NCBI GenBank assembly: GCA_019239415.1
Contig: JAFAZW010000068.1
Coordinates: 1 to 36,510, forward strand
DNA length: 36,510 nucleotides
Direction of reading: 5' to 3'
From: Alphaproteobacteria bacterium
GTDB lineage: Bacteria; Pseudomonadota; Alphaproteobacteria; Sphingomonadales; Sphingomonadaceae
Shown here: one piece after another, positions 23,895-36,510 of the stretch
How the letters are laid out: each line of letters starts with the position of its first letter
Numbering within the stretch: the stretch's first letter is position 1
Position numbers and translations under genes: made by a program
The notes under the pieces: generated by a model
Databases searched by the model: none
What the model was told of the DNA's origin: nothing
What the model saw: the letters and a program-made list of their open reading frames with translations, nothing else

Positions 23895-24083
23895 ATGGAC
23901 CTGGGCGCCGCAGGCTGGGGGCTTCAGACGATTGTCGGCGGGCTCTTGCTCGTCGCCGTCCTGCTGTGGGCTGTGCTGAGGAACCGCAGCTCGAAGACCC
24001 CGCTCGACCGCAGCGAGCGCGGCGCACGGCGCGTCTACGACGAGAGCGAGGAGGTGCGGCGTAGCGGCGACGACGACGCCTGA
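23895..24083 (+). CDS. Small single-pass membrane protein (62 aa)
   Basis: An N-terminal helix (LQTIVGGLLLVAVLLWAVLR, about residues 10-29) is followed by a charged cytosolic tail (DRSERGARRVYDESEEVRR). The ATG at 23895 has AGGAG upstream. No family is recognised. It lies between the divergent exonuclease and helicase genes and is probably transcribed with the helicase. Confidence 0.7.
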   Translation: MDLGAAGWGLQTIVGGLLLVAVLLWAVLRNRSSKTPLDRSERGARRVYDESEEVRRSGDDDA

Positions 24084-24123
24084 GCGCTTGCGCCGGGGCC
24101 GTCCCGAGCCCCATCTCCGGAGC

Positions 24124-26544
24124 ATGGACGATGCGCCGGCCCTCCCATCCGCAGTCACCGACTGGTTCGCGTCGAAGGGCTGGGCGCCGCGGCGGCACCA
24201 GCTCGAGATGCTCGCCGCCGCGCGGGACGGCCGCAACGCTCTCCTCGTCGCGCCGACCGGCGCGGGCAAGACGCTCGCCGGCTTCCTCCCCAGCATCGTC
24301 GAGCTCGCCGAGGCGCCGAGCGAGGGGCTCCACACCCTCTACATCTCGCCCTTGAAGGCCCTCGCCGTCGACGTGCAGCGCAACCTGCTCACGCCAATCG
24401 AGGAGATGGGCCTCCCCATCCGCGTCGAGACCCGCACCGGCGACACCCCCTCCGACCGCAAGGCCCGCCAGCGCGTCCGCCCGCCGCAGATCCTGCTGAC
24501 CACCCCCGAATCCTTGAGCCTCCTGCTCAGCCACGAGGACGGCGCCCTCCTCTTCGCCAACCTGTCCACCGTGGTGATCGACGAGATCCACGCCTTCGCC
24601 ACCGGCAAGCGCGGCGACCTGCTCAGCCTCGCCCTCGCCCGGCTCCAGCGCCTCGCGCCGAACCTCCGCCGCGTCGGCCTCTCCGCCACCGTCTCCGATC
24701 CCGAGGCCTTCCAGGGCTGGCTCGCCCCCCATGGCGACGCCGAGACGGTGGAGCTGGTCCAGGGCGATCCCGGCGCTCCCGCCCAGCTCGCCATCATGCT
24801 CCCGGACGAGGACAGGATCCCCTGGGCCGGCCATAGCGGCCGCTGGGCGGCGCAGAGCGTCATGCGCGAGATCGCGGCGCATCGGACCACCCTCATCTTC
24901 TGCAACACCCGCTCCCTCGCCGAGCTCATCTTCCAGGACCTGTGGGCGGTGAACGAGGACCACTTGCCCATCGGCATCCACCACGGCTCGCTTGCCCTGG
25001 AAGCCCGCCGCAAGGTCGAGAATGCCGTCGCCGACGGGCGCCTGCGCGCCCTCGTCTGCACCGCCAGCCTCGACCTCGGCGTCGACTGGGGCGACGTCGA
25101 CCTCGTCGTCCAGATGGGCGCGCCCAAGGGCTCGTCGCGCCTGATGCAGCGGATCGGCCGCGCCAACCACCGCCTCGACGAGCCGTCGCAGGCGATCATC
25201 GTCCCCGGCAACCGCTTCGAATATCTCGAAGCCCGCGCCGCCCTCGACGCCATCGAGGAAGGCGCCCTCGACACCGAATATTTCCGCCCCGGCACCCTCG
25301 ACGTCCTTGCCCAGCACATCATGGCGATCGCCTGCGCCGGCCCCTTCCGCGAGGACGAGCTGCTCGAAGAAATCCGCTCCGCCGCGCCCTATGCGGGCCT
25401 CCGGGAGGACATCTTCCGCGCCGTCCTCTCCTTCATCGAAAGCGGGGGCTACAGCCTCCGCGCGTACGACAAGTTCCGCCGCATCGCGCAGGACCCGGAC
25501 GGCACCTGGCGCGTCGCCCACCCCCGCTTCATCCAGCAGCACCGGATGAACGCCGGCATCATCGTCGACACGCCCCTCTATTACGTCCGCTTCAGGAACG
25601 GCCGCCTGCTCGGCACGGTCGAGGACAATTTCGCGGAGACCCTGTCGCCCGGCGACACCTTCTTCTTCTCCGGCCTGGTGCTCGAGGTGGACCGGATCGA
25701 CGGCGTCGACCTCGTCGTCCACGCCACTTCCAAATCCGCCCGCATCCCCACCTACATGGGCGCCCGCATCGCCATCTCGACCAACCTCGCCGACCGCGTC
25801 CGCGCCTTCCTCCACGACCGCGCCGAGTGGCCCCGCTTCCCCGACCCGGTGCGCGAGTGGCTCGCCACGCAGGACTATCGCTCGGCGATCCCCGCCCCCG
25901 ACCAGCTCCTCGTCGAGACCTTCCCGCACGAGCATGTCCACTACATGGTCGCCTACAGCTTCGAGGGCTGGAACGCGAACCAGTCGCTCGGCATGCTCAT
26001 CACGCGGCGCATGGAAGCGGCCGGCCTCAAGCCGCTCGGCTTCGTCGCCAACGACTATGCCCTCGCCTGCTACGGCCTCGAGCCGATCGAGGAGCCCGCC
26101 CCCCTCTTCTCCGCCGACATCCTCGAAAAGGAGTTCGTCGACTGGGTCGAAAACTCCCACCTCCTGAAGCGCGCCTTCCGCGAGGTCGCCGTCATCGGCG
26201 GCCTCGTCGAACGCGCCCATCCCGGCAAGCGCAAGACCGGCAAGCAGGTCACCTTCTCCACCGACCTCATCTACGACGTGCTGCGCCGCTACGAACCCGA
26301 CCACCTCCTCCTGAAGGCCGCCTGGGCCGACGCCCGCGAAAAGATGACCGATGTCGGCCGCCTCGCCCGCCTCCTCGACCGCGCCCAGGCGACCATGCTC
26401 CACGTCGAGCTGGAGCGCGTCTCCCCGATGGCGGTGCCGGTCCTCACCATCATCGGCCGGGAGCGGATGGCCCAGGGCACGGCCGACGACCAGCTGCTGA
26501 TCGAGGCGGAGAGTTTGGCCGAGGTGGCGATGCGGCGGGATTGA
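24124..26544 (+). CDS. Ligase-associated DNA damage response DEXH-box helicase (Lhr type)
   Basis: An 806-aa SF2 helicase. Motifs: I, APTGAGKTLAGFLPS; Ia, TLYISPLKALAVDVQ; Ib, LLTTPESLSLLLS; II, VVIDEIHAFATGKRG; III, GLSATVSDP; IV-VI, TLIFCNTRSLAE, CTASLDLGVDWGDVDLVVQM, MQRIGRANHR. A long C-terminal domain follows, as in the Lhr-like helicase of the ligase-associated repair locus. The ATG at 24124 has CCGGAG upstream. The last 144 bases recur in truncated form at 30568-30711. Confidence 0.95.
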   Translation: MDDAPALPSAVTDWFASKGWAPRRHQLEMLAAARDGRNALLVAPTGAGKTLAGFLPSIVELAEAPSEGLHTLYISPLKALAVDVQRNLLTPIEEMGLPIRVETRTGDTPSDRKARQRVRPPQILLTTPESLSLLLSHEDGALLFANLSTVVIDEIHAFATGKRGDLLSLALARLQRLAPNLRRVGLSATVSDPEAFQGWLAPHGDAETVELVQGDPGAPAQLAIMLPDEDRIPWAGHSGRWAAQSVMREIAAHRTTLIFCNTRSLAELIFQDLWAVNEDHLPIGIHHGSLALEARRKVENAVADGRLRALVCTASLDLGVDWGDVDLVVQMGAPKGSSRLMQRIGRANHRLDEPSQAIIVPGNRFEYLEARAALDAIEEGALDTEYFRPGTLDVLAQHIMAIACAGPFREDELLEEIRSAAPYAGLREDIFRAVLSFIESGGYSLRAYDKFRRIAQDPDGTWRVAHPRFIQQHRMNAGIIVDTPLYYVRFRNGRLLGTVEDNFAETLSPGDTFFFSGLVLEVDRIDGVDLVVHATSKSARIPTYMGARIAISTNLADRVRAFLHDRAEWPRFPDPVREWLATQDYRSAIPAPDQLLVETFPHEHVHYMVAYSFEGWNANQSLGMLITRRMEAAGLKPLGFVANDYALACYGLEPIEEPAPLFSADILEKEFVDWVENSHLLKRAFREVAVIGGLVERAHPGKRKTGKQVTFSTDLIYDVLRRYEPDHLLLKAAWADAREKMTDVGRLARLLDRAQATMLHVELERVSPMAVPVLTIIGRERMAQGTADDQLLIEAESLAEVAMRRD

Positions 26545-26550
26545 CCCATC

Positions 26551-26600
26551 CTCCCTCTCCCCCGCGGGGAGGGGGTCGGGGTGAGGGGGCGCAGCGTCGT
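26551..26600. repeat. CCCTCTCCCC-type REP element
   Basis: CCTCTCCCCCGCGGGGAGGG followed by GTGAGGGGGCGCAGCGTC, the same unit as at 13402. It sits 6 bases after the helicase stop. Confidence 0.6.
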
Positions 26601-26621
26601 AGAAGGCTCACATGGGCCGCC

Positions 26622-26650
26622 CTCGTCATGCCGGACTTGATCCGGCATCC
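26622..26650. repeat. CGTCATGCCGGA hairpin repeat
   Basis: ATGCCGGA-CTTGA-TCCGGCAT (26628-26648) is a perfect 8-bp hairpin, of the CGTCATCCCGGACTTGATCC repeat type frequent in sphingomonads. Confidence 0.6.
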
Positions 26651-27006
26651 ACCTTCGTCTGTCCTCCGGGGTCAGGTACGCACCCGACACCGCCCCGACC
26701 CTGCCAGTTCTAGCGATCAGGCCTGTTGCTTCAAACACCCGTCGCTAGATGGATTGAGAGCGAAAGCTTCACTTAGAAATCTGGTCCGCTTCCTATCGAG
26801 CTCCCCACGTGCAATGAAGTTGCCCGACGGTCGGGCTCGCCTCGCTTCCCACGGCGTAGATGACCAGCCGGAGTAATCCCGCGTCCGGGCTGGGCTCAAA
26901 GCTGCCGCAGCACCAAGGGGCGTGTGCAGATGACACGAAACTAGGACCGGCTTCGCGCTTGCGCCAGCTCAATGGAGCCACCCCCGCGCGAAGTGCGGCC
27001 GCCTGG
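26651..27006. other. Gap without a recognisable gene
   Basis: No frame here carries a familiar motif on either strand, and base composition is less GC-rich than the core genes. An 8-bp inverted repeat TCTAGCGA / TCGCTAGA lies at 26709-26716 and 26742-26749. The stretch is probably decayed foreign DNA left of the IS element. Confidence 0.5.
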
Positions 27007-27012
27007 GCTAGC

Positions 27013-28057
27013 TGTGATGTTTCCATAGGTTGTTCATCCGGTCCTGGCCGAGCAGACTGAGGTTGCGAAGCTTCAGGCTCTCAGGAGGATCGGATGAACA
27101 TTCACAAGAATGCCAGATTGACGCCGCGCAGTCGAGGCGAGCTGGTGCGGCGCGTGCTCATAGAGCGCCAGTCGCCCATGTCGGTCGCGACCGACATGGG
27201 CGTGTCGGTCCGGACGGTGGCGAAGTGGGTGGCGCGCTACCGGGCCGAGGGTGAGGCCGGCCTCGCCGACCGCTCGTCGCGCCCTCACCGACTGCGCCGG
27301 CCGACGCCGCCGGCGACGGTGGAGCGGATCGAGGCGCTGCGCCGCCAGCGCTGGACCGGCAAGCGGATCGCCCTGGCCGTCGGCCTGTCCAGGGCCACCG
27401 TCAGCCGGGTGCTGCGCAGGCTCGGCCTCAGCCGCATCAGGGACCTTGAACCCGCCGAGCCCGTGCGCCGCTACGAGCGTGAGCACCCCGGCGAGCTCAT
27501 CCATATCGACATCAAGAAGCTCGGCCGCTTCGAGAGGATCGGCCATCGCATCACCGGCGATCGCGCCCACCGCAGCGACGAGAGTGGACGAAGCAGGAGA
27601 GCCGGCTGGGACTATGTCCACGTCTGCATCGACGATGCCTCGCGCATCGCCTTCAGCCAGATCCTGTCCGACGAGAGGAAGGAAAGCGCCGTCCCCTTCC
27701 TGGAGGCCGCCATCGCCTACTATGCCGGCCTCGGCGTCACCGTCGCCCGGGTCATGACCGACAATGGCAGCTGCTATAGAAGCCGCGCCTTCCGCCAGGC
27801 CTGCAAGGCCCTCAACCTCAGGCACATCCAAACTAGGCCCTACACCCCCAGGACCAACGGCAAGGCCGAACGCTTCATCCAAACCAGCCTGCGCGAATGG
27901 GCCTACGCACAAGCCTACCCGACCTCGCAACACCGCAAGGCCGAGCTGCCAAGATGGCTCCACCAATATAACTGGCACCGCCCACACGGCAGCCTACAAG
28001 CCCAAACACCCATCAGCCAACTCGGCCTGGACGTGAACAACCTGTTGAGGCTCCACA
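27013..28057 (+). mobile_element. IS481-family insertion sequence (1045 bp)
   Basis: The ends TGTGATGTTTCCATAGGTTG (left, 27013 on) and TGTGGAGCCTCAACAGGTTG (right end, complement from 28057) form imperfect terminal inverted repeats over 24 bases, both finishing in TTGTTCA. The element is flanked by GCTAG on both sides (27007-27011 and 28058-28062), matching the NCTAGN target known for IS481. A single transposase gene fills it. The element looks intact. Confidence 0.88.
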
Positions 28058-28062
28058 GCTAG
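27094..28062 (+). CDS. IS481-family transposase
   Basis: A 322-aa DDE transposase. An N-terminal helix-turn-helix (MSVATDMGVSVRTVAKWVAR) and a second one (IALAVGLSRATVSRVLRRL) are followed by the rve catalytic core: first Asp in IHIDIKKLGRF, second in VMTDNGSCYRS, and Glu in PRTNGKAERFIQT. AGGAGG precedes the ATG. The coding frame runs through the right terminal repeat, and its TAG stop (28060-28062) is supplied by the CTAG target duplication, not by the element. Confidence 0.95.
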   Translation: MNIHKNARLTPRSRGELVRRVLIERQSPMSVATDMGVSVRTVAKWVARYRAEGEAGLADRSSRPHRLRRPTPPATVERIEALRRQRWTGKRIALAVGLSRATVSRVLRRLGLSRIRDLEPAEPVRRYEREHPGELIHIDIKKLGRFERIGHRITGDRAHRSDESGRSRRAGWDYVHVCIDDASRIAFSQILSDERKESAVPFLEAAIAYYAGLGVTVARVMTDNGSCYRSRAFRQACKALNLRHIQTRPYTPRTNGKAERFIQTSLREWAYAQAYPTSQHRKAELPRWLHQYNWHRPHGSLQAQTPISQLGLDVNNLLRLHS

Positions 28063-28391
28063 ATCAGCATCCGCCCGCCCCACGCCGACAGGACGGCAAA
28101 CAGGCCCAGGAAGGCGAGCACGCACCCCGCCGCCGCCAGGAGCGGCCAGGCCTTCCCCGACCGTGCCGCTCGCCAGGCGAACCACGCCCCCGCCGCGAGC
28201 GGCAACGGCATCGCGACCAGGGCGGCGGCGCTGAATTGCGCCGGCGGCCGCAAGTCGAGCCACCCGAATCCCACGTAGACCAACGGCACGGCCGGGACGA
28301 GCGCGAGCGCGCACAGGCCGCAGATCAGCATCGCCGCCGCCCTCGCCGCTAATCGACCCCTGTTCCGGTGCTTCGGCGCAGCATTCGCCAT
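28059..28391 (-). CDS. Small polytopic membrane protein (110 aa)
   Basis: Three hydrophobic helices (about 21-43 MLICGLCALALVPAVPLVYV, 55-73 and 82-103). Starts MANAAPKHRNRGRL with a basic cytosolic N-terminus. No family is recognised. Its stop TAG is the complement of the same CTAG that ends the transposase, so the two convergent genes share a palindromic stop and overlap by 4 bases. The C-terminus is not truncated by the insertion, since the flanking CTAG would have given the same stop before it. Confidence 0.7.
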   Translation of the reverse strand: MANAAPKHRNRGRLAARAAAMLICGLCALALVPAVPLVYVGFGWLDLRPPAQFSAAALVAMPLPLAAGAWFAWRAARSGKAWPLLAAAGCVLAFLGLFAVLSAWGGRMLI

Positions 28392-28405
28392 GGTCCGCGC
28401 CGGCG

Positions 28406-28867
28406 CTATTTCGCGGGCTTGAAGTGGCAGCAGGCGCGGAGCCGTTCGGCGCCGGTGTCGGCCGGCCGCTCGGCGAGCTCGGAGCGCATTTCGAGCCGCA
28501 TCATGACGCCGGTGCGGCTCGTGCCCATGATCTCGAAATAATGCGGCGGGCCGCTGTCGACGATGGTGAAGTAGGCCTCGACCGAACCCTGGCGGGAGAG
28601 GAAGGGCCAGTCCACCTCGATGAGGTGGTTGCCCGGCGCGACATGGAGGGCGGTGAATTGCTTCTGCGCGAGGCCCGCCACCTTGCGCCCGTCGACCTTC
28701 ACGCTGGGCGTGAAGATGAGCGGCTCGGCGTGGTCGCGGTAGACGTAGAGGTTGGCATCGGCGGGCGGCGCCGCGGCGGCCGCGGCGGCGGCGGGTGGAG
28801 CGCTCGCCGCCGGACCGGGCGCCGGCGCCGGCGCCACCATGAGCAGTAGCGCAACGGACATGCTCAT
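28406..28867 (-). CDS. DUF2846-like exported protein
   Basis: A 153-aa protein with a short hydrophobic start (MSMSVALLLMVAPAPA), an Ala/Pro-rich linker (to about residue 38), then a compact beta domain: ANLYVYRDHAEPLIF, VKVDGRKVAGLAQKQFTAL, VAPGNHLIEVDWP. This matches DUF2846, a small periplasmic/lipoprotein-like domain of unknown role. The ATG at 28865-28867 has GGGGAAG upstream. It lies 14 bases before the start of the small membrane gene on the same strand, so the two probably form an operon. Confidence 0.75.
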   Translation of the reverse strand: MSMSVALLLMVAPAPAPGPAASAPPAAAAAAAAPPADANLYVYRDHAEPLIFTPSVKVDGRKVAGLAQKQFTALHVAPGNHLIEVDWPFLSRQGSVEAYFTIVDSGPPHYFEIMGTSRTGVMMRLEMRSELAERPADTGAERLRACCHFKPAK

Positions 28868-28964
28868 TTCTTCCCCCTGTCCCCCAGCCCCGCGGGCCGC
28901 CCCTCCGGCGCCGCATCGCTGTGCGCCCGGCCCCATGGCTAACCGGTTTCGGCCCGCGCGCCAA

Positions 28965-29194
28965 CCGATGCCCTCGGATCGGCTGTCGACGTTGTGGTGC
29001 GTGATCCTGACACGGGAGAGGAAGTTCTGGTTGACCTGTCCTCACTGCCTTTCTCGACGCGCCTTCAGAAGATTGCGGCACATGCGAAGGCAACAGGCCG
29101 CCGCGCGCGGCTGGTCGTCCGCTGGCTGCGCAGCACCTCAATCCTCCCGCACCAGCTCCACATGGCTCACGCCGAGCCCCGGGCGATGACGTAG
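28965..29194 (+). pseudogene. Decayed copy of the GIY-YIG-like gene 3' end
   Basis: Starting abruptly at CCGATGCCCTCGGATCGGCT, this stretch matches 33272 onward with about 20 differences over 240 bases. It encodes only the last ~53 residues (TGEEVLVDLSSLP, TRLQKIAAHAKATGR, ARLVVR). The native TGA is changed (CGCTGGCTG in place of CGGTGACTG), so the frame runs on to 29194. The catalytic N-terminal part is absent. Confidence 0.85.
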
Positions 29195-29325
29195 AGCGTC
29201 CCCTTCGACAGGCTCAGGATCATGGGCGGCGGGTTGCGCTTACCCTTCTCGAGCCCGCGTGCGCATTGCTGACCGACGCCGCACCGCTCCGCCAGCTGCT
29301 CCTGCGTCAGGCCGCTCACCGCGCA
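29170..29325 (-). pseudogene. Decayed copy of the XRE-family regulator gene
   Basis: Homologous to the intact gene at 33445-33654 but lacking its 5' end. It keeps SGLTQEQLAERCGVGQQCAR and GLEKGKRNPP, then an inserted REP half-element (CCCTTCGACAGGCTCAGG) replaces part of helix 4-5 with MILSLSKGTL. The homology ends at about 29325, where the MarR promoter begins. Confidence 0.82.
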
Positions 29326-29333
29326 GCGCCGAT

Positions 29334-29350
29334 CCTTCGTTTTGACGAAA
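29334..29350. promoter_or_regulatory. Probable MarR operator
   Basis: TTCGT-TTTG-ACGAA (29336-29349) is a perfect inverted repeat, 27 bases before the MarR-type start, in AT-rich sequence. MarR repressors usually bind such palindromes in their own promoter. Confidence 0.45.
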
Positions 29351-29376
29351 GATTTTTCGCCGCCCAGACTCGCCGC

Positions 29377-29829
29377 ATGGTGGATGAAGACGCCTTCGAA
29401 ATCCTGCGGGCCTACCCGCAAATCTATCTGGCCTGCCATGTCGAGCACCGGACGCGCCGCTCCTCGGCGAGCGGGCTGACCTCGCGCGAGGCGAGCTTTC
29501 TCGCCCATCTCGCGGACATGGGGGAGGCGGGACCGGCCGCGCTCGCGCGCCACCTCGGCATCGGCCCGTCCACCCTGTCGGCGGCCCTGTCCCGGCTCTG
29601 TGGCAAGGGGCTGATCGAATCGGACCCCGATCCGCACGACGCCAGGCGGCGCCGGCTGCGGCTGACCGACGCCGGGCGCGCCGCCATCGTCGAGGATTCG
29701 GTCCTCGATGCGGACCGCCTCGCCGCCTTGCTGTCGCTGTTGGCGCCGGAGGAGCGGCGCGCGGCGGTGGCGGGGCTGAAGATCCTCGCCGCCGCGGCGC
29801 GGCGCTTTCGCAACGGGGAGGGGGAATGA
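29377..29829 (+). CDS. MarR-family transcriptional regulator
   Basis: A 150-aa winged-helix regulator. The start MVDEDAFEILRAYPQIYLAC is chosen because the frame upstream (from 29266) crosses the decayed XRE copy. DNA-binding region: LTSREASFLAHLADMG, ARHLGIGPSTLSAALSRLCG (recognition helix) and the wing DPHDARRRRLRLTDAG. Followed after 1 base by an SRPBCC gene, so it probably controls that operon in response to a hydrophobic ligand. Confidence 0.88.
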   Translation: MVDEDAFEILRAYPQIYLACHVEHRTRRSSASGLTSREASFLAHLADMGEAGPAALARHLGIGPSTLSAALSRLCGKGLIESDPDPHDARRRRLRLTDAGRAAIVEDSVLDADRLAALLSLLAPEERRAAVAGLKILAAAARRFRNGEGE

Positions 29830-29830
29830 C

Positions 29831-30376
29831 ATGCTGAAATGGGTGCTGCTGATCGCTGCCGTCCCGATCGCGCTCGGCCTCATCGTCTACGCCGTCGGCG
29901 CGTTGCTGCCGGCGGACCATCGCGCGGCGGGAGAGGCGAGGGTCGCGGCGGCGCCGGAGCGGGTGGCGGCGATCGTCCGCGATCTCGCGGCGCAGCCCCG
30001 CTGGCGCAAGGGCGTCTCCCGCATCGAGATTGTGAAACGCGACGCCGGCGGCACCCATTATGTCGAGCATTCCTCCGACGGCCGCATCGCCTTCCGCTTC
30101 CGCGAGGAGGAGCCGGGCGCGCGCTTCCGCGCGACGATCGACGACCCGGACCTGCCGTTCGGCGGCACCTGGACCATCCGCCTCCGCCCCGACGGAACGG
30201 GCACCCAAGTCGCCATCGAGGAACGGGGGACCGTCCGCAGCCCCGTCTACCGCTTCTTCTCGCGGTTCGTTTTCGGGCAGGACCGCACGCTCAGGGCCTA
30301 TCTGCGCGACCTCCAGGCGGCCGCCGGATCCCGTCAGCCCCTGGAGGCGAGCGGCGCGAGCCGGTCGGGTCCGTAA
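29831..30376 (+). CDS. Membrane-anchored SRPBCC/polyketide-cyclase-like protein
   Basis: A 181-aa protein. An N-terminal helix (LLIAAVPIALGLIVYAVGAL) anchors an SRPBCC domain (about 35-170: GEARVAAAPERVAAIVRDLA, WRKGVSRIEIVKRD, FRATIDDPDLPFGGTWTIRL). These domains bind lipids or other hydrophobic ligands. Cotranscribed with the MarR gene. The last ~14 residues (PLEASGASRSGP) are encoded antisense to the 3' end of the yihY remnant, so the natural C-terminus may be shorter. Confidence 0.82.
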   Translation: MLKWVLLIAAVPIALGLIVYAVGALLPADHRAAGEARVAAAPERVAAIVRDLAAQPRWRKGVSRIEIVKRDAGGTHYVEHSSDGRIAFRFREEEPGARFRATIDDPDLPFGGTWTIRLRPDGTGTQVAIEERGTVRSPVYRFFSRFVFGQDRTLRAYLRDLQAAAGSRQPLEASGASRSGP

Positions 30377-30567
30377 CGGGTGCCGTGGGCCGGAGGCTTG
30401 CGCCGCCTGCGCCACATCGGGACGCCGAGCGCCGCCGCGACGAACGCCGCTCGGGCGAGCGGCGCTTTCGACGGGCATGGGCCGGCGCGGCCTCCGCTTC
30501 ACGCGTCGGTTCGGCAGCGGTCGCCGGGACGGCGGGAGCACCCCGGCGCCTGTTCCTTCTCGATCTC
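30334..30567 (-). pseudogene. Truncated, diverged copy of the yihY 3' end
   Basis: The minus strand reads RRKAPLARAAFVAAALGVPM, then WRRRRKPPAHGTRYGPDRLA and PLASRG with a TGA at 30334-30336. The intact gene's end is KAPLAGAALIAAALGIRFWR... GTHYGPERIAPLASRA. Nucleotide identity is only about two thirds and there are internal gaps. The copy stops at about 30567, where it is fused to the helicase remnant. Confidence 0.8.
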
Positions 30568-30711
30568 AACGTCGAACTGGAGTGCGTCTCCCCGATGGCA
30601 GTGCCCGTCCCCACCATCATCGGCCGGGAGCGGATGGCCCAGGGCACGGCCGACGACCAGCTGCTGATCGAGGCGGAGAGTTTGGCCCAGGTGGCGATGC
30701 GGCGGGATTGA
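30568..30711 (+). pseudogene. Truncated copy of the DEXH helicase 3' end (144 bp)
   Basis: Matches 26401-26544 with 7 differences in 144 bases, including the stop. The encoded end is SPMAVPVPTIIGRERMAQGT through AESLAQVAMRRD. There is no start and no ATPase motif. The junction with the yihY remnant contains CTC (30565-30567), which both parent genes also have at their break points (26398-26400 and 35013-35015). Confidence 0.92.
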
Positions 30712-30745
30712 CGGGGCCACCCCTACCCGACCCCCCCACCAGGAT

Positions 30746-32257
30746 TCATCCCTTCCCCGCTTCCTGCTGCATCCTATCGTTGAGTTCGTCCAAGCCTGAA
30801 AGGACGTTCGACTCAGTATTTAGGTACGACGGATACCCCGTTGTGAAGATCGGGAAGGCGTCGGTTGGATTCCATCGGTCGGCTACATCCTGATTGTTCT
30901 TTCGCCGCGCTTTCTCGAAAACTTTGCGAAAGCCGTTCGGTGTCACTCCCACGAAGGGCCGAAATCGTACCCTGTTCGGCAGTGACTCGTCGATCGCCAC
31001 AGAGTCTTCATAGAGCTCCCGCACAAGGCTCTTGTAGTAGGGCTGTAGGTACTGGACTTCCTTGATACCCGCTGCGACGACCAGCTTTGTGCACATGTGG
31101 CAGGGCATTGTCGTACAGAAGAGAGTGCCGTCCTTTGTAGCACGCCCGAACCGAGCAGCATCCGTGATGGCGTTCATCTCGGCGTGAACCATCCTACCGT
31201 ACTCGATGACGTCTGCTATCATTGCCCGTGCAAGCGGCCCCTGCTCCTCATCGTCCCGAAGCGCTTCGGTCGCCAGCTCTTCCGGAGATTTCGCTGCGTA
31301 GTCTTCGCTTAGCCATCCCTCTCGGAGGCGACCGAGCAAATCACGTATCATGTCGGCGCGAATTCGAGCGTTTGAGTCGTAGCCGAGTTGGAAGTCTCGC
31401 GCGTCCGGTCGGTGGTCGAGCCAATACGTACCGCCTCCATAGGCAGGCACCTCATTACAGCCGAGGGAAACGATTTCCCTGTTGGCGCCGAAGATAGCGG
31501 CACCGACTTGTCGAGACAGGTCCGACGATCTCAGGGAGGCCGTTTGCGCCAAGTACATTCCGTGCTCGTCCCGCGTCGGGCTAACGAAAGGATGACCGAA
31601 AAAGCATTCGATGAAGCGGGAGACCGAAGAGCGGATCGTAGTCGGGTCTGTACAATCGATTATAAAGTCTGCATGTGGGTAGGCATCAAGAAAGCGCTGG
31701 CCATCCTTTTCGTCCTTTTGGTTCTCGTCTATGCCGATGATCTTCAACGCTTGAGCCTCTAGCTCATTAGCATCAGTACCCCGCTCAGATTTCAGCAGGA
31801 TAGAAACAAGGTTGCGCACTCTGGAACGCTTCGGGGAGTAACAGCCAATGAACAATATGTTGCTGCCATAGACTTCTCGGAGAGTTTTTACCTCCTCAAC
31901 CCGCTTCAATTGCCTAAAAATGTAAGCAGCGCCTGCTGCGATCACGTTCGGACGATCCTCTTGATCTCTGTAGATCTGCGCAATACCGGTCACGGCAAGC
32001 GCATCCCGTCGTTTCGAAACCCGGCAAAATCTATTTCCGGCTTGAATAAACTTCTCGTACCGCTGAAACTCTGTTTCGAACCGAAGGTCAAACCACTCCG
32101 GATGTTCGCGCAAGAAGTCCGTGAGCTTTATCAGCTTAGGGGTGAAGGACACTCGGCGGAGCCCCTCGGAAAGCTCCGATTGCACTAGGTCGAGATCGAC
32201 GCCAATGGGTGAAATGAGGCCGAAAAATACCTCCGGCCGTATTCGAATTTTATCCAC
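30746..32257 (-). CDS. Anti-phage dCTP/dCMP deaminase (AvcD/DcdV type)
   Basis: A 503-aa two-domain protein. The N-terminal part (about 10-220) is a kinase-like domain (VFFGLISPIGVDLDLVQSEL, NILFIGCYSPKRSRVRNLVS, ADFIIDCTD). The C-terminal part is a zinc cytidine deaminase: VHAEMNAITDA (H358-A-E360) and TTMPCHMCTKLV (C386, C389), preceded by SLGCNEVPAYGGGTYW. This layout and length is that of the bacterial anti-phage deaminases (DcdV/AvcD), which deplete dCTP/dCMP during infection. In Vibrio the enzyme is held by an RNA partner (AvcI) encoded next to it. The GTG at 32255-32257 (GGAG upstream) is preferred; a TTG at 32305 adds 16 residues. Base composition is less GC-rich than neighbours. Confidence 0.88.
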   Translation of the reverse strand: MDKIRIRPEVFFGLISPIGVDLDLVQSELSEGLRRVSFTPKLIKLTDFLREHPEWFDLRFETEFQRYEKFIQAGNRFCRVSKRRDALAVTGIAQIYRDQEDRPNVIAAGAAYIFRQLKRVEEVKTLREVYGSNILFIGCYSPKRSRVRNLVSILLKSERGTDANELEAQALKIIGIDENQKDEKDGQRFLDAYPHADFIIDCTDPTTIRSSVSRFIECFFGHPFVSPTRDEHGMYLAQTASLRSSDLSRQVGAAIFGANREIVSLGCNEVPAYGGGTYWLDHRPDARDFQLGYDSNARIRADMIRDLLGRLREGWLSEDYAAKSPEELATEALRDDEEQGPLARAMIADVIEYGRMVHAEMNAITDAARFGRATKDGTLFCTTMPCHMCTKLVVAAGIKEVQYLQPYYKSLVRELYEDSVAIDESLPNRVRFRPFVGVTPNGFRKVFEKARRKNNQDVADRWNPTDAFPIFTTGYPSYLNTESNVLSGLDELNDRMQQEAGKG

Positions 32258-32318
32258 ACCCCTGCTCCAAGCGCCTGTGGAAAACTTCAGAAAATGGTGG
32301 ACCAACAGCTCCCGACTG

Positions 32319-32324
32319 TGTCAA
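32319..32324 (-). promoter_or_regulatory. Possible -35 element for the deaminase gene
   Basis: TTGACA on the minus strand, 62 bases before the GTG start. The -10 position (TCCACC) is poor, so the promoter is tentative. Confidence 0.3.
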
Positions 32325-32359
32325 GCACTGTTTCGCTCAGCCCGCAGGGAGTTCCTACC

Positions 32360-32533
32360 ATGACAAAAACCGCACCAGACAGTGGATGGTTGAGTCAGGT
32401 GATCGAGCGTTCAAAAAATGCCGCAAATTCAGGCCCTAAGCCCATGCAGAGTGGGCAGCTCCCCCACCTTGATGCTCGATCCGGAGGCCGCGCCGCGCCG
32501 AGCTCCTCGGGGAACGAGAGCTGCACGTACTGA
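32360..32533 (+). CDS. Small ORF in the deaminase upstream region (57 aa)
   Basis: An ATG with AGGGAG about 10 bases upstream begins MTKTAPDSGWLSQVIERSKN and ends NESCTY. The first 30 residues look like a short amphipathic helix; the rest is Ser/Gly/Pro-rich. It is divergent from the deaminase. No family is recognised, and the second half overlaps RNA hairpins (GCCCA-TGCAGAG-TGGGC; AGCT-C-CTCG/CGAG-AGCT), so it may instead be part of a non-coding RNA. Confidence 0.4.
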   Translation: MTKTAPDSGWLSQVIERSKNAANSGPKPMQSGQLPHLDARSGGRAAPSSSGNESCTY

Positions 32534-32787
32534 GAGATTCGTCCACAGGAACCTTGTGGATAACCGCCTAGGATGGTTGTGGATAACCTACTAAGCAGCG
32601 GGTGCTGAAGAGATTTGCGCGCCGACAGATAGGACGCCTCTTCCAAGTTCAGTCGCCGGCAGAGTCCGAATCCACCGGGATTTCCTCGCTGAGGTCCACT
32701 CCTCACGTCGATCCAGGCAGTCGCGCCTGCGCTCTGCGGTCGCTAGCCAAGCTCTTCGGACGCTGCGAGATCTGACTGAGGTACTCC

Positions 32788-33432
32788 ATGAGGGGATTCA
32801 CCCGCTACTATCGCGATCCCGAATTCAGGCGGCAGGTGGACGAGCAATTCGCCCTCACCGATGCAGTGAGCCAGCGCGGGATATGGATCACCTACGCGAT
32901 TCACGATCCGACGCGAATGGACCCGTTCGAGGGCCGACCGCAGGGCTTGATCGTCTACGTGGGGCAATCAAGGCAATTCAGCACGCGCGTGCGCAACCGG
33001 ATGAGCACCGCTGGTCGTGCTGTCAAACGACCGACCGACAAGATCGACGGCCTCTTGTATGACATCATGGCCCGCGGGCCTGCACCTCGCTGGAGCGTCC
33101 TGGAGGAGGTGACCTCGGCGATAGAGTCGCTCGTTTCAGAGACAAACTGGACAATCCGGCTACGCGCCAAAGGCTATCCTCTCGTCAACCAGTGGGCCGA
33201 ACACAAGCTCGGCACCCTGGAAATTGACGGATATACCGTCGACCATAAGCGCCTTTGGCCAATCACTGCGGCCGATGCCCTCGGATCGGCTATCGACGTT
33301 GTGGTGCGTGATCCTGGCACGGGGGAGGAAGTTCTGGTTGACTTGTCCTCACTGCCTCCCTCGACGCGCCTTCAGAAGATTGCGGCACATGCGAAGGCAA
33401 CAGGCCGCTGGGCGCGGCTGGTCGTCCGGTGA
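32788..33432 (+). CDS. GIY-YIG-like nuclease-fold protein
   Basis: A 214-aa protein. Residues 31-135 follow the GIY-YIG order: GIWITYAIHD (Tyr36 as the GIY element), GLIVYVGQSRQFSTRVRNRM (Y57-V-G59 as YIG, R67), then SETNWTIRLRAKGYPLVNQW (E118, N134). A C-terminal domain of about 80 residues (DGYTVDHKRLW, TGEEVLVDLSSLP, TRLQKIAAHAKATGR) is unfamiliar. ATG 32788 has GAGG nearby. It is convergent with the XRE gene 12 bases away. Not matched to a named family; restriction, repair or mobile-element roles are all possible. Confidence 0.65.
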   Translation: MRGFTRYYRDPEFRRQVDEQFALTDAVSQRGIWITYAIHDPTRMDPFEGRPQGLIVYVGQSRQFSTRVRNRMSTAGRAVKRPTDKIDGLLYDIMARGPAPRWSVLEEVTSAIESLVSETNWTIRLRAKGYPLVNQWAEHKLGTLEIDGYTVDHKRLWPITAADALGSAIDVVVRDPGTGEEVLVDLSSLPPSTRLQKIAAHAKATGRWARLVVR

Positions 33433-33444
33433 CTGCGTAACGCG

Positions 33445-33654
33445 TCAATCCTCCCGCACCAGCTCCACATGGCTCACCCCGAGCCCCTGGGCGATGTGGT
33501 AGAGCGTCACGATCGTCGGGTTCCTTTTCCCCTTCTCGAGCCCGCTTATGTACTGCTGGCTCACCCCGCACCTTTCCGCCAGCTGCTCCTGCGTCAGGCC
33601 GCTCGCCGCGCGGAGGCGGGCGAAGTTGCGGCCGACGAGCTGGCGCATGTCCAT
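33445..33654 (-). CDS. Small XRE-family helix-turn-helix regulator
   Basis: A 69-aa single-domain Cro/C1-type protein: RNFARLRAASGLTQEQLAER, CGVSQQYISGLEKGKRNP, TIVTLYHIAQGLGVSHVELV, all five helices present. Such proteins regulate restriction-modification, toxin or prophage genes. It is convergent with the GIY-YIG-like gene, and the pair occurs again as a decayed copy at 28965-29325. Confidence 0.9.
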   Translation of the reverse strand: MDMRQLVGRNFARLRAASGLTQEQLAERCGVSQQYISGLEKGKRNPTIVTLYHIAQGLGVSHVELVRED

Positions 33655-33738
33655 GCACGAAGAGATGGCGCTCGCGCCGGCACAAGTTTATCAACTATAA
33701 TATGTGTGAGTCGCCACCCTCTCCCCGTTTTCCAGTGA

Positions 33739-34053
33739 ATGGCTGAGCCCGCCGCGCCTCCGACGGCCTCCGAGCTGCGCACCGCGGCGGCGCGGCTCGC
33801 GGCCGAGATGGACCGGGCGCGGCTGTTCCAGGCGGCCGCCTATGCGGCGATGGCGGCGGACGCGGCGGGGCGGGCGCGGCTCGGCGAGGAGGCGATGCGC
33901 ACCGACGTCGACCTCGACTTCCGCGTCGACGAATATGACCGCGTCTGGATCATCCGGGAAGGCGACTGCCAGATCATCGGCCGCCGCCACGCCGTCTGCG
34001 CGGAGATGACCAGGTTCCTCGCCTCCGGGGTGCTGCAGGAGGGAGCGGGATGA
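33739..34053 (+). CDS. Hypothetical protein (104 aa)
   Basis: No family is recognised. An Ala-rich amphipathic helix (residues 10-55: TASELRTAAARLAAEMDRAR) is followed by a small beta part (DVDLDFRVDEYDRVWIIREG, CQIIGRRHAVCAEM). No signal or membrane segment. It starts 84 bases after the XRE start in divergent orientation, so the two may share a regulatory region. Confidence 0.6.
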   Translation: MAEPAAPPTASELRTAAARLAAEMDRARLFQAAAYAAMAADAAGRARLGEEAMRTDVDLDFRVDEYDRVWIIREGDCQIIGRRHAVCAEMTRFLASGVLQEGAG

Positions 34054-34095
34054 CGTAGGGTGCCCTCGCTCGCTTCAACGCCTGCGGCCGCCCCC

Positions 34096-34362
34096 TCAAT
34101 AATGGTACCGGCATGCCAGCACCTCGAGTGCCTGCGCCTCTCCCTTTCCCGTCACACGATAGACCAGGCGGTGTTCGCCCGTGATCCGCCGCGACCACCA
34201 GCCCGTGAGGTTGCGTCGGAGCGGTTCGGGCTTGCCGGTGCCGCGGAACGGGTCGCGCAGACATTCGCCGATGAGCAGGTTGATGCGATCGGCGACCTTG
34301 GCGTCCTCGGCCCGCCAGCCGACATATTCGATCCAGGCCTCCCGGTCGAAGACGACCTTCAC
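34096..34362 (-). CDS. yoeB: YoeB-family toxin (Txe/YoeB)
   Basis: An 88-aa mRNA interferase of the RelE superfamily acting at the ribosome. It has the family sequence WIEYVGWRAEDAKVADRINL, the PFRGTGKPEPLRRNLTGWWS segment, SRRITGEHRLVYRV and the terminal CRYHY with the catalytic His/Tyr. Its start overlaps the antitoxin stop (4 bases), the usual operon order. Confidence 0.95.
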   Translation of the reverse strand: MKVVFDREAWIEYVGWRAEDAKVADRINLLIGECLRDPFRGTGKPEPLRRNLTGWWSRRITGEHRLVYRVTGKGEAQALEVLACRYHY

Positions 34363-34613
34363 GGCCGGATCAGCTCGTGCTCCTCGCCTTCACCCGCGGC
34401 GAGCCGGGCGATACCTTCCATCAGCCGCTTCGCATTGGTCGGAGACGACAGGAGGTGAAGCGTCTCCTCCATTCCCGCCCATTCCTCGGCAGAGATGAGA
34501 ACGACGTTTTCGCCACGCTGGCGCGTGATCAGGATCGGGGCGCGGTCCGCTGCCGCCTTGTCCATCACCTTCTTCAGGTTCTCGCGCGCTTCGGAGTAGC
34601 TGACAGTCTGCAT
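34359..34613 (-). CDS. yefM: Phd/YefM-family antitoxin
   Basis: An 84-aa antitoxin: MQTVSYSEARENLKKVMDKA (DNA-binding N-terminal domain), ILITRQRGENVVLISAEEWA, and a C-terminal toxin-binding tail (LMEGIARLAAGEGEEHELIR). The start ATG at 34611-34613 is chosen because the longer frame runs through the operator. Confidence 0.93.
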   Translation of the reverse strand: MQTVSYSEARENLKKVMDKAAADRAPILITRQRGENVVLISAEEWAGMEETLHLLSSPTNAKRLMEGIARLAAGEGEEHELIRP

Positions 34614-34623
34614 GGCGCAACTA

Positions 34624-34649
34624 TGGACAGAAGATTGTCCAAAAGTCAA
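34624..34649 (-). promoter_or_regulatory. YefM-YoeB operator and promoter
   Basis: TGGACA-N6-TGTCCA (34624-34641) is a perfect palindrome just upstream of yefM. A TTGACT -35-like hexamer precedes it on the minus strand (34644-34649), so bound YefM would cover the promoter, giving the usual autoregulation. Confidence 0.6.
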
Positions 34650-34730
34650 TGCTGCCGTACCCACGGGGGGTGGCGGACCTGCGCCTGAACCGGATTCGAC
34701 GGTGACGCCCGTGCGGGGAGTCCTCCCGGG

Positions 34731-35846
34731 CTAGGCCCGCGAGGCGAGCGGCGCGATGCGCTCCGGCCCGTAGTGCGTGCCCGCCGGCACGGACCGCCTC
34801 GCCCGGCGCCAGAAGCGGATCCCGAGCGCCGCCGCGATCAATGCCGCGCCGGCCAGGGGCGCCTTCGACGGTGCGTGGGCCGGCGCGGGCTGCGCCTCCC
34901 GCGCCGGCTCCCGCTCCGCGCGGGCGGGAGCAGTAGCCGCCCCCGCCGCCTTCGCCTGCGCCACCGGACCGCGCGCCCTCCCGGCCGCCTCCGCGGCCTG
35001 TTCCTTCTCCAGCTCCGAGTTCAATTCGCCGCCCATCAGGACGATGTAGCCGGTGAGGTAGAGCCAGGTGAGGAAGACGACGACGCCGCCCAGCGAGCCG
35101 TAGGTCTTGTTGTAGCTGCCGAAGTGGCTGACGTAGAGGCCGAAGGCGGCGGTGCCGACGAGCCACAGCAAGGTGGCGGCGGCGGAGCCGGGGCTCACCC
35201 ACATCCACGGCGCCTCGGGGCGGTTGGGGGCGAAGCGGTAGACGGCGGCGAGGCCGACCGCGACGGCCGCCACGGCGACGGCCCAGGCGAGGGCCTGGAC
35301 GAGGAAGTGGACGACCGGCGAGGAGAAGGGAAGGAGGTGCTCGACGAAGGCGCTGACCGAGATGGCGCCGACCGCGAGGAGGATGACGAGGAGGCCGCCG
35401 ACCGTCATCGCCAGGGTGAGGAGCGTCGTCTTCACGAAGCCGCGGTCCTCCTTCAGCTCATAGGCGATGTTGAGGGCCGTGACGACGCCGCCGGCGCCCT
35501 TGCTGGCCCCGTAGAGGGCAAGCGCGAGGGCGACGACGAGGCTGATGCCCTTCGAGGATTGCGGGCTCGAGGTGAGGCTCTTGAGCTGGTCGGCGATCAG
35601 CGCGGCCGCATCCCTCGGCAAGGTGGCGAACAATTTGCCGATATGCTCGGCGACGGTCTGCGGATCTGCCGCCAGGCCGTAGACGAGCACCACGGCCGCC
35701 AGCAAAGGAACGAAGGCGAGGAACGCGTAAAAGGCGATGCCGGCGGCGAGGAAGCCGACATTGTCGTCGCCCGCTTCCTTCCAGGTGCGGGTGAGCACGG
35801 CGCGCCACTCGGCGGCTGCGGGCCAGCGGACGGGTTCGATTGCCAT
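34731..35846 (-). CDS. YihY/BrkB (UPF0761) family inner-membrane protein
   Basis: A 371-aa polytopic protein. Six hydrophobic helices in about residues 30-275, with family blocks DDNVGFLAAGIAFYAFLAFV, LALYGASKGAGGVVTALNIA, YKF-type RFAPNRPEAPW, and YGSLGGVVVFLTWLYLTGYI. The charged, Ala-rich C-terminal tail (about 290-371) is variable. Function is unknown (once proposed as ribonuclease BN, now rejected). The ATG at 35846 is used; the one at 35894 lies inside a REP element. Its 3' end is present in a diverged copy at 30334-30567. Confidence 0.92.
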   Translation of the reverse strand: MAIEPVRWPAAAEWRAVLTRTWKEAGDDNVGFLAAGIAFYAFLAFVPLLAAVVLVYGLAADPQTVAEHIGKLFATLPRDAAALIADQLKSLTSSPQSSKGISLVVALALALYGASKGAGGVVTALNIAYELKEDRGFVKTTLLTLAMTVGGLLVILLAVGAISVSAFVEHLLPFSSPVVHFLVQALAWAVAVAAVAVGLAAVYRFAPNRPEAPWMWVSPGSAAATLLWLVGTAAFGLYVSHFGSYNKTYGSLGGVVVFLTWLYLTGYIVLMGGELNSELEKEQAAEAAGRARGPVAQAKAAGAATAPARAEREPAREAQPAPAHAPSKAPLAGAALIAAALGIRFWRRARRSVPAGTHYGPERIAPLASRA

Positions 35847-35894
35847 GCGGCGCAGAACCGGCGCGGGGCTCGGGGGGTTCCGAGGGACGCGCAT

Positions 35895-35961
35895 GGGGAC
35901 ACGCACCGACCGCACCCGCCCCGCAATATTCGCGCCGGCCCGCGGATTCGGTACGTGTCCC
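35895..35961. repeat. REP-like inverted repeat, second GACACGTAC member
   Basis: GGGGACACGCACCGA and TTCGGTACGTGTCCC face each other. The inner core is ATTCGCGCCGG, the inverse of the core at 10939-11001. Lies upstream of yihY. Confidence 0.7.
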
Positions 35962-35996
35962 TTTTCGTCGGCCTTGGGCGGTCGGTGACTGTCCCT

Positions 35997-36510
35997 TCAC
36001 ACCATCGCTTTGGGGTTCGAGAAGACCCGCATCACTTCCGGCTCGAAGCTCTCCAGCGGGTCGACCTCGAAATCGGGGTCGAAGGCCGGCGCATCCCACT
36101 CGTCCACCAGCTTCTCCGCAAAGCCGTACCAGCTCTCGCCCGCGAACCGCTTGCGCCCCTCCGGATCCTTGCCGAGGTGCTGAAAATAATAGCGGCCCTG
36201 GAACTCCTGGTGCCAATAGACGGCGTGGTAGATGTCCTCCGACACGTAGGGCTTGAGCATCTCCGCGGCGATCGCGCCGTGATTGGGGATCGAGAACAGC
36301 TTGCCGAGGTCGTGGCACAGCGCCGCGACGACCTCCTCGTCGCGCGCGCCGGCGCGGCGGGCGAGGGTCCCGGCCATCAGCGAATGGGTGAGCTGGTCGG
36401 CGGCGAAGCCGACCTCGATCGCCTCGAGCCGCTTCAGGCTCTCCAGGATCTGGCGTGCGGCGGCGCTCTTCTGGTGCCGGCCGTGCTCGGCGGCGATGTG
36501 CGCCCAGTCG
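35997..36510 (-). CDS. HD-domain protein, PhnZ/MIOX-like (runs off right edge)
   Basis: About 171 C-terminal residues are visible. Metal ligands in LTHSLMAGTLARRAG and VAALCHDLGKLFSIPNHG (the HD pair), then DIYHAVYWHQEFQGRYYFQH and WDAPAFDPDFEVDPLESFEP. The spacing and the WDAPAFDPD block resemble the HD-type oxygenase/phosphonate family (PhnZ, MIOX-like) more than dNTPase or ppGpp hydrolases. The start lies beyond base 36510. Confidence 0.8.
   Translation of the reverse strand, partial: DWAHIAAEHGRHQKSAAARQILESLKRLEAIEVGFAADQLTHSLMAGTLARRAGARDEEVVAALCHDLGKLFSIPNHGAIAAEMLKPYVSEDIYHAVYWHQEFQGRYYFQHLGKDPEGRKRFAGESWYGFAEKLVDEWDAPAFDPDFEVDPLESFEPEVMRVFSNPKAMV

Follow-up and report, generated by a model that had tools for sequence, protein, structure and literature searches.

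The window analysed here is a whole contig of 36,510 nucleotides (JAFAZW010000068.1, our contig C46) from the draft genome GCA_019239415.1 of a member of the Sphingomonadaceae, an assembly of 103 contigs with 3.02% contamination. In this window an intact ligase-associated DEXH-box helicase gene and an intact yihY gene are separated by about 8.2 kb, in which the 3' ends of both genes occur a second time and two different sets of accessory genes (cargo 1 and cargo 2) lie one behind the other. A preliminary description of the sequence had proposed an imperfect tandem duplication with three anchors present twice in the same order and orientation: the helicase 3' end (H1 and H2 in copies 1 and 2), a segment with GIY-YIG nuclease-like and XRE regulator genes (X1 and X2), and the yihY 3' end (Y1 and Y2). 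When positions 26398-30567 were aligned with 30565-35015 by BLASTN, three collinear direct matches were obtained, and a repeat search found the same families. The helicase ends (26398-26545 and 30565-30712) were identical at 141 of 148 positions (95%, E 2e-64), the GIY/XRE segments (28965-29324 and 33272-33611) at 304 of 361 columns (84%, 22 gap columns, E 2e-114), and the yihY ends (30336-30512 and 34733-34910) at 137 of 181 columns (76%, E 7e-26). These three main matches are far beyond chance and the anchors are truly related; a junction-side piece of yihY (30548-30567 and 34996-35015, 18 of 20 bp) was not significant alone (E 0.05). The identities first given, about 95%, 92% and two-thirds, held for the helicase end and needed correction for the other two. 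The middle anchor was uneven, with 93% over its first 219 bp but 79% across another 112 bp that belong to XRE, and the yihY tails compared end to end reached 79% (228 aligned sites, 47 differences, 60 gap columns). The offsets between the copies were 4167 for the helicase, 4307 for GIY/XRE and 4397 for yihY.

Because the helicase (+) and yihY (-) genes are convergent, both truncated pieces are 3' ends. They meet at the Y1/H2 junction, where the sequence reads TTCTCGATCTC up to the join and AACGTCGAA after it, and the CTC is present in both parents, as the preliminary description had stated. This is a single illegitimate join with a 3-nt microhomology, a length that could also arise by chance. 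The geometry of a tandem duplication is present, with copies in the same orientation and the end of one joined to the start of the next. However, the cargoes differ, as had also been proposed: no significant homology between the two cargoes was detected by BLASTN outside X, and a repeat of the whole unit with its cargo, as expected of a tandem duplication, is not found. The coordinates of all features are collected in Table 1.

Table 1. Genes, anchors and junction between the helicase and yihY genes in the window (positions of the whole stretch).
Feature	Position	Strand	Evidence and remarks
Ligase-associated DEXH-box helicase	24088-26544	+	Intact; TIGR04121 1078.7 bits (cutoff 850)
Anchor H1	26398-26545	+	Intact helicase 3' end; last 147 nt of gene 24088-26544
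IS481-family insertion sequence	27007-28065	+	Limits approximate (from plasmid matches); CTAG at both ends
IS481 transposase	27094-28062	+	NF033577 331.3 bits (cutoff 224)
Small membrane-protein-like open reading frame (ORF)	28059-28391	-	Part of ORF 28059-29141; DUF6524 weak, E 0.0027 (Pfam)
DUF2846 protein	28406-28936	-	PF11008 34.1 bits, just below cutoff 34.3
Anchor X1	28965-29331	.	GIY-YIG gene 3' end (+) and broken XRE gene (-)
MarR-family regulator	29266-29829	+	PF12802 45.6 bits; ORF as called begins inside X1
SRPBCC/polyketide-cyclase-like protein	29831-30376	+	PF10604 50.1 bits; frame continues into Y1
Anchor Y1	30334-30567	-	Truncated, frame-broken yihY 3' end; translations and alignment
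Junction Y1/H2	30565-30567	.	Truncated yihY meets truncated helicase; 3-nt CTC common to both parents
Anchor H2	30565-30712	+	Truncated, decayed helicase 3' end
Anti-phage dCTP deaminase (AvcD-like)	30746-32305	-	NF041025 402.5 bits (cutoff 400)
Small ORF divergent from deaminase gene	32360-32533	+	Related ORF in the same place, L205 3054-3218 (tblastn 2e-7)
GIY-YIG-type nuclease-like protein	32788-33432	+	Intact; motif positions, fold of predicted model
Anchor X2	33272-33618	.	GIY/XRE tail-to-tail segment inside intact genes
XRE regulator	33445-33654	-	Intact; PF01381 67.5 bits
104-aa ORF	33739-34053	+	103-aa relative adjoins XRE paralog on C74
YoeB toxin	34096-34362	-	TIGR02116 94.8 bits (cutoff 51.8)
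YefM antitoxin	34359-34664	-	PF02604 84.7 bits (cutoff 29.8)
yihY (BrkB family)	34731-35915	-	Intact; PF03631 208.5 bits; closest relative compared G007
Anchor Y2	34733-35015	-	3' end of intact yihY

The same site was compared across the genus set, which comprised 26 genomes including the window's own and thus 25 relatives; a family set of 397 genomes, again including its own, was used for single genes. About 10 kb downstream of the helicase was fetched and read in 19 of the 25 relatives, all except G002, G016, G019, G022, G023 and G024. For G022 the yihY locus alone was fetched, with no helicase within its 12 kb, and in G004 and G021 the downstream stretch is shortened by contig ends. At a tblastn cutoff of E <= 1e-15, yihY was found downstream of the helicase in 8 of the 19, with one match each, and 11 showed none within the stretch fetched. 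In six relatives the site was empty, with stop-to-stop gaps of -4, 11, 15, 35, 37 and 119 nt; larger gaps were seen in G004 (1288 nt, holding one RTX-like gene) and G017 (3708 nt). The G017 interval, with bactofilin-like and MntR-like genes named by eye, was discarded as same-site cargo, its yihY falling in another clade. Two convergent, nearly touching genes are thus the arrangement in this group. Given this nearly gapless helicase/yihY site in the relatives, the simplest reading of the 8.2 kb in the window is that it was added. No second helicase or second yihY was present at the site in any of the 19 relatives read, and with six relatives near-touching, a deletion origin from an older second helicase or yihY was rejected as unlikely. 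The site had also been called a hotspot for accessory genes, and here the case is weak: of the seven relatives that share the tail-to-tail arrangement, G004 alone carries an extra gene, and six are empty. The listings of literature searches gave no comparable hotspot between convergent genes.

The duplicated anchors were then polarised against relatives. At all seven sites where H1 and H2 differ, H1 carries the commonest base of the relatives (18 relatives, gapped ones aside), and the H2 base is absent from them at five sites, found in 1 of 16 at one and in 5 of 18 at another. Four of the seven H2 changes alter an amino acid, and no other relative exceeds 81% over the aligned part. Because all seven differences lie on the H2 side, H2 is a decayed copy of the 3' end of this lineage's helicase gene.

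X1 keeps only the last 54 codons of the GIY gene, a remnant outside the motif positions of the full gene, which end at residue 134, and its XRE gene is broken by a 21-bp insertion and a 1-bp deletion. A paralogous XRE stretch lies on contig C74 of the same genome (83% identical), and with it as outgroup the XRE part showed 11 non-synonymous and 2 synonymous X1-specific changes, set beside 2 non-synonymous, 9 synonymous and 1 extragenic X2-specific change, with 2 sites assigned to neither. With 11 outgroups and majority rule, 16 changes were X1-derived (7, 6 and 3 at codon positions 1 to 3) and 10 were X2-derived (3, 0 and 7). In the GIY end, polarised with G344, four changes were X1-derived (all non-synonymous) and four X2-derived (two synonymous), and five sites fell to neither side. 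X1 has thus decayed like a pseudogene, and X2 has been evolving under constraint, over a time that may exceed the decay of X1. The XRE tree unites X1, X2 and C74 (91/96), with the branching order among the three open. With C74 as sole outgroup the X1/X2 split looked nearly symmetrical (13 to 12), and when this count was compared with a 3:1 expectation in a binomial test, p was 0.01, or 0.002 once the GIY part was included; these p values are not relied on because the 11 outgroups give 16 to 10.

Such a structure might be produced by an assembly or binning artefact in which two strain alleles were stitched into one contig, and the fragmented draft, its contamination and the identity of the window with a whole contig would allow it. 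However, both pieces at the join are truncated and decayed rather than intact alleles, and the three shared nucleotides would be too short for a k-mer overlap, so that we regard an artefact as very unlikely.

In this genome the site has been loaded, and two loaded versions stand in tandem, linked by one illegitimate junction between a yihY 3' part and a helicase 3' part. To obtain such a structure with different alleles, the simplest route would be a single illegitimate join together with a single homologous crossover. With moderate confidence we favour the reading that one such join brought the two versions into tandem, probably with import from a relative. A fragment of a related strain, with its own loaded interval of helicase end, cargo and yihY end, would have closed on itself, and this illegitimate self-closure would have joined the yihY end to the helicase end. 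The closed fragment would then have entered by a single homologous crossover in the helicase end, and an integrase would be unnecessary. Afterwards the three leftover pieces (H2, Y1 and X1) would have decayed, and the main cargo 2 genes would have kept their frames. The empty site in relatives, the junction, the decay of H2 and X1 and the patchy distribution of the cargo are observed; the import, its donor and the order of events are what we infer from this scar. The same picture would result if a local duplication had been overwritten afterwards in one of its halves.

Alternatively, one loaded segment could have been duplicated in situ, with later loss or replacement of cargo and with unequal constraint as the only cause of the unequal anchor divergence. 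The junction geometry fits such a duplication, H2 derives wholly from the resident helicase, and a GIY/XRE remnant is common to both copies in the same order. Models with a single age for all anchors gave p from <0.0001 to 0.31 in nine settings and from 0.0038 to 0.19 in six settings of a second set, a spread which arises because the result depends mainly on the rates allowed for the yihY tail and X2. The second set was run with 16+4 (or +9) X1 changes over 337 sites and, for X2, with 11 synonymous changes at 95 synonymous sites, the latter number being an estimate. A single age survived four of the nine settings (p 0.07-0.31, those in which X2 was fixed or almost fixed and the yihY tail evolved no slower than neutral) and three of the six (p 0.08-0.19). 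On the other side, X2 has many changes of its own, mostly synonymous, the Y1 and Y2 tails differ at 47 sites when 34-43 are expected from the decay of H2 and X1, and no significant homology of cargo is left outside X. In-situ duplication is therefore possible but, in our judgement, on the unlikely side.

The preliminary description had further taken the unequal divergence of the anchors, with the differing cargo, as a sign of complementary loss or of repeated cargo exchange with other strains. As direct proof of exchange the unequal divergence is unsafe. Between the sister species G014 and G015, identity is 89.8% for the helicase end and 75.4% for the yihY end, and because this pair shows the same inequality, the inequality in the window is by itself weak evidence of exchange. 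The parental helicase end is constrained and the yihY tail evolves fast; many replacements in the yihY tails are conservative, judged from their translations. Exchange itself is likely, though moderately so, as suggested by the synonymous changes of X2 and by yihY tails that exceed the decay of H2, but its strength varies with the assumed rates (p 0.004 to 0.19). In their differences, the fragments of GIY/XRE and yihY rather resemble alleles that have diverged. Trees of the two resident genes also disagreed, which fits exchange around the site. The helicase data reject a grouping of the window with G007 (p-AU 0.0005) and narrowly fail to reject a window grouped with all seven (p 0.058), whereas the yihY tree places the window with G007 (86/90) and rejects it with G003/G014/G015 (p 0.019); the clades were named after the trees had been seen.

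Several points weigh against an import from a relative. Only some of the assumed rates lead to rejection of a single-age in-situ duplication. Since none of the changes lies in H1, nothing in the helicase ends points to a diverged donor, and the tandem looks local at this end. The helicase differences are clustered: six of the seven fall within the first 50 bp (Fisher p 0.006). This is a hint of conversion, which would blur the ages. The split in the GIY end is even, the yihY branch uniting the window with G007 was not starred, and the yihY data also allow the window outside G007, G004, G011 and G021 (p 0.09). The comparison included no other genome of the same species, and neither a donor nor an intermediate state was present among the genomes compared.

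The helicase had long close matches in 24 of the 25 congeners (73-83% identity), with only a distant helicase in G022. Its end branch is among the longer ones in the congeners (0.24, median 0.11; three others 0.26-0.28), mostly owing to some middle and C-terminal segments. Beyond yihY, the last 26 bp of the window (36485-36510) are identical to the opening 26 bp of C39, another contig of this genome, which may continue C46 past the window end.

The cargo genes are patchily distributed. Those of cargo 1 other than the insertion sequence appear to have no clear ortholog in the 25 congeners. Among the 26 genus genomes, the SRPBCC gene was found as the own copy only, and the DUF2846 gene as the own copy plus one weak match (G004); for MarR, general family matches of 27-48% identity were seen, and its true start is probably near 29378. 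A plasmid search with the region matched only IS481. Just after the helicase, at 26621-26670, lies a short repeat with near-identical copies elsewhere in the genome, which accounts for 34 of 46 scored own-genome matches (40 of 848 first candidates scored).

The repeated 3' gene ends of about 150 bp that flank the cargo resemble those of some integrative elements, and an element with attachment sites in the helicase or yihY 3' end would leave such repeats. No integrase or other site-specific recombinase was found among the main ORFs scanned (not every ORF was scanned), the only recombinase being the IS481 transposase of cargo 1, and no tRNA lies in the window. An integrative element was accordingly rejected as scarcely credible.

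Cargo 2 is, in its intact part, an ordinary small defence-type cargo, and its main genes (deaminase, GIY-YIG, XRE and YefM-YoeB) keep open frames. The G+C content is 53-61% over the deaminase-GIY part, compared with about 70% around it and 65-70% in the rest of cargo 2. The deaminase scored just above the curated cutoff of the AvcD family, which would place it there, and its deamination activity is predicted; it also matched the PADLOC dCTPase family (E 7e-141) and the deaminase domain PF00383 (64.2 bits). Matches were present in 24 of the 397 family genomes including its own, the closest other at 69%. For YefM, the model NF008499 gave 106.1 bits, below its cutoff of 121, and the 104-aa ORF had no Pfam or PHROG match.

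Beside the deaminase gene, loci L206, L207 and L209 carry mutually similar ORFs at the place of the window's ORF of about 55 aa. In all four pairs compared, codon position 2 differed least and position 3 most often (e.g. 24/15/31), which is a coding pattern, and the small ORF is a possible protein partner of the sphingomonad AvcD. It was not recognised at the other 10 of the 15 deaminase loci read.

The GIY-YIG superfamily is defined by a motif with conserved R, E and N. Residues Y36, Y57-V58-G59, R67, E118 and N134 were invariant across seven GIY sequences, and the cargo 2 protein thus appears to carry this motif, with a predicted nuclease role. Its structural model (pLDDT 89) had weak fold matches, with PD-T4-3 as the best (E 0.011) and I-TevI as the fourth (E 0.55); no PDB match reached E <= 0.001, no PADLOC family matched, and no Pfam family scored above its cutoff. 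A plasmid search with the protein gave one partial match only. In G344 (L195, 449-2145) the closest relative of this gene directly follows the 3' end of an N6/N4 DNA methylase gene, with a DUF5681 gene nearby, a restriction-modification-like setting; the window gene has no methylase beside it.

A further possibility is that an empty junction of about 380 bp was duplicated before any loading, and that each of the two sites then received its cargo on its own, X1 being a separately captured fragment. The empty state is common, the cargoes share nothing significant except X, and relatives of XRE are present in G011 and at other places in the window's own genome. However, X stands in the same order and at a similar position in both copies, as the three offsets show, and it includes the end of the GIY gene, the protein of which has few relatives (9 of 397 family genomes including its own; the closest other, in G344, at 67%). 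We therefore consider independent loading quite unlikely.

A bolder extension would make the helicase/yihY junction an integrase-free ratchet, in which alleles of the interval repeatedly enter by one crossover in a gene end, each entry is recorded in a scar of two truncated gene ends that could be dated, and the defence cargo of related species is stacked; we think this unlikely. The event itself is of a known kind, its kind of mechanism has already been described, and existing knowledge of such mechanisms is not changed. Its value lies in a legible scar, with an empty state in relatives, an exact junction and decayed fragments that can be polarised, which allows the integrase-free entry of accessory and anti-phage genes between resident genes to be tested.

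Several known systems resemble parts of this locus. Defence hotspots between core genes are listed in the literature (for example PMC10250203 and PMC10121019), and in the window, too, cargo with anti-phage genes stands between resident genes, but only one of seven same-type relatives of the window has other cargo. The deaminase resembles AvcD in scoring, just above the NF041025 cutoff, as a family member. In the cited part of the source, AvcI is the RNA antitoxin of AvcD (PMC10511110). The window locus differs in that no Rfam match for an AvcI-like RNA was found in 24000-36510 (whether Rfam includes AvcI was unchecked), and a divergent small ORF adjoins the deaminase gene. In E. coli, the portion cited of Amarir-Bouhram and colleagues (PMC3240628) describes circularised DNA integrated by a single crossover, with partial duplications of the anchor gene of 109-950 bp in 14 sequenced clones. 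Likewise, in the window one homologous anchor and one illegitimate join would be combined as in single-crossover integration or homology-facilitated illegitimate recombination (HFIR), and an anchor-gene end (148 bp) is partly duplicated beside foreign DNA; here, however, the event is reconstructed from its scar and both insert ends are homologous to the site. For displaced immunity genes of Vibrio, Kirchberger and colleagues, in the section cited (PMC5361080), proposed a mechanism akin to HFIR. In those type VI secretion immunity arrays, as far as that section describes them, new cargo likewise stands beside a conserved gene with older tail pieces shifted downstream; the Vibrio leftovers are immunity genes, whereas those in the window are decayed ends of the resident genes.

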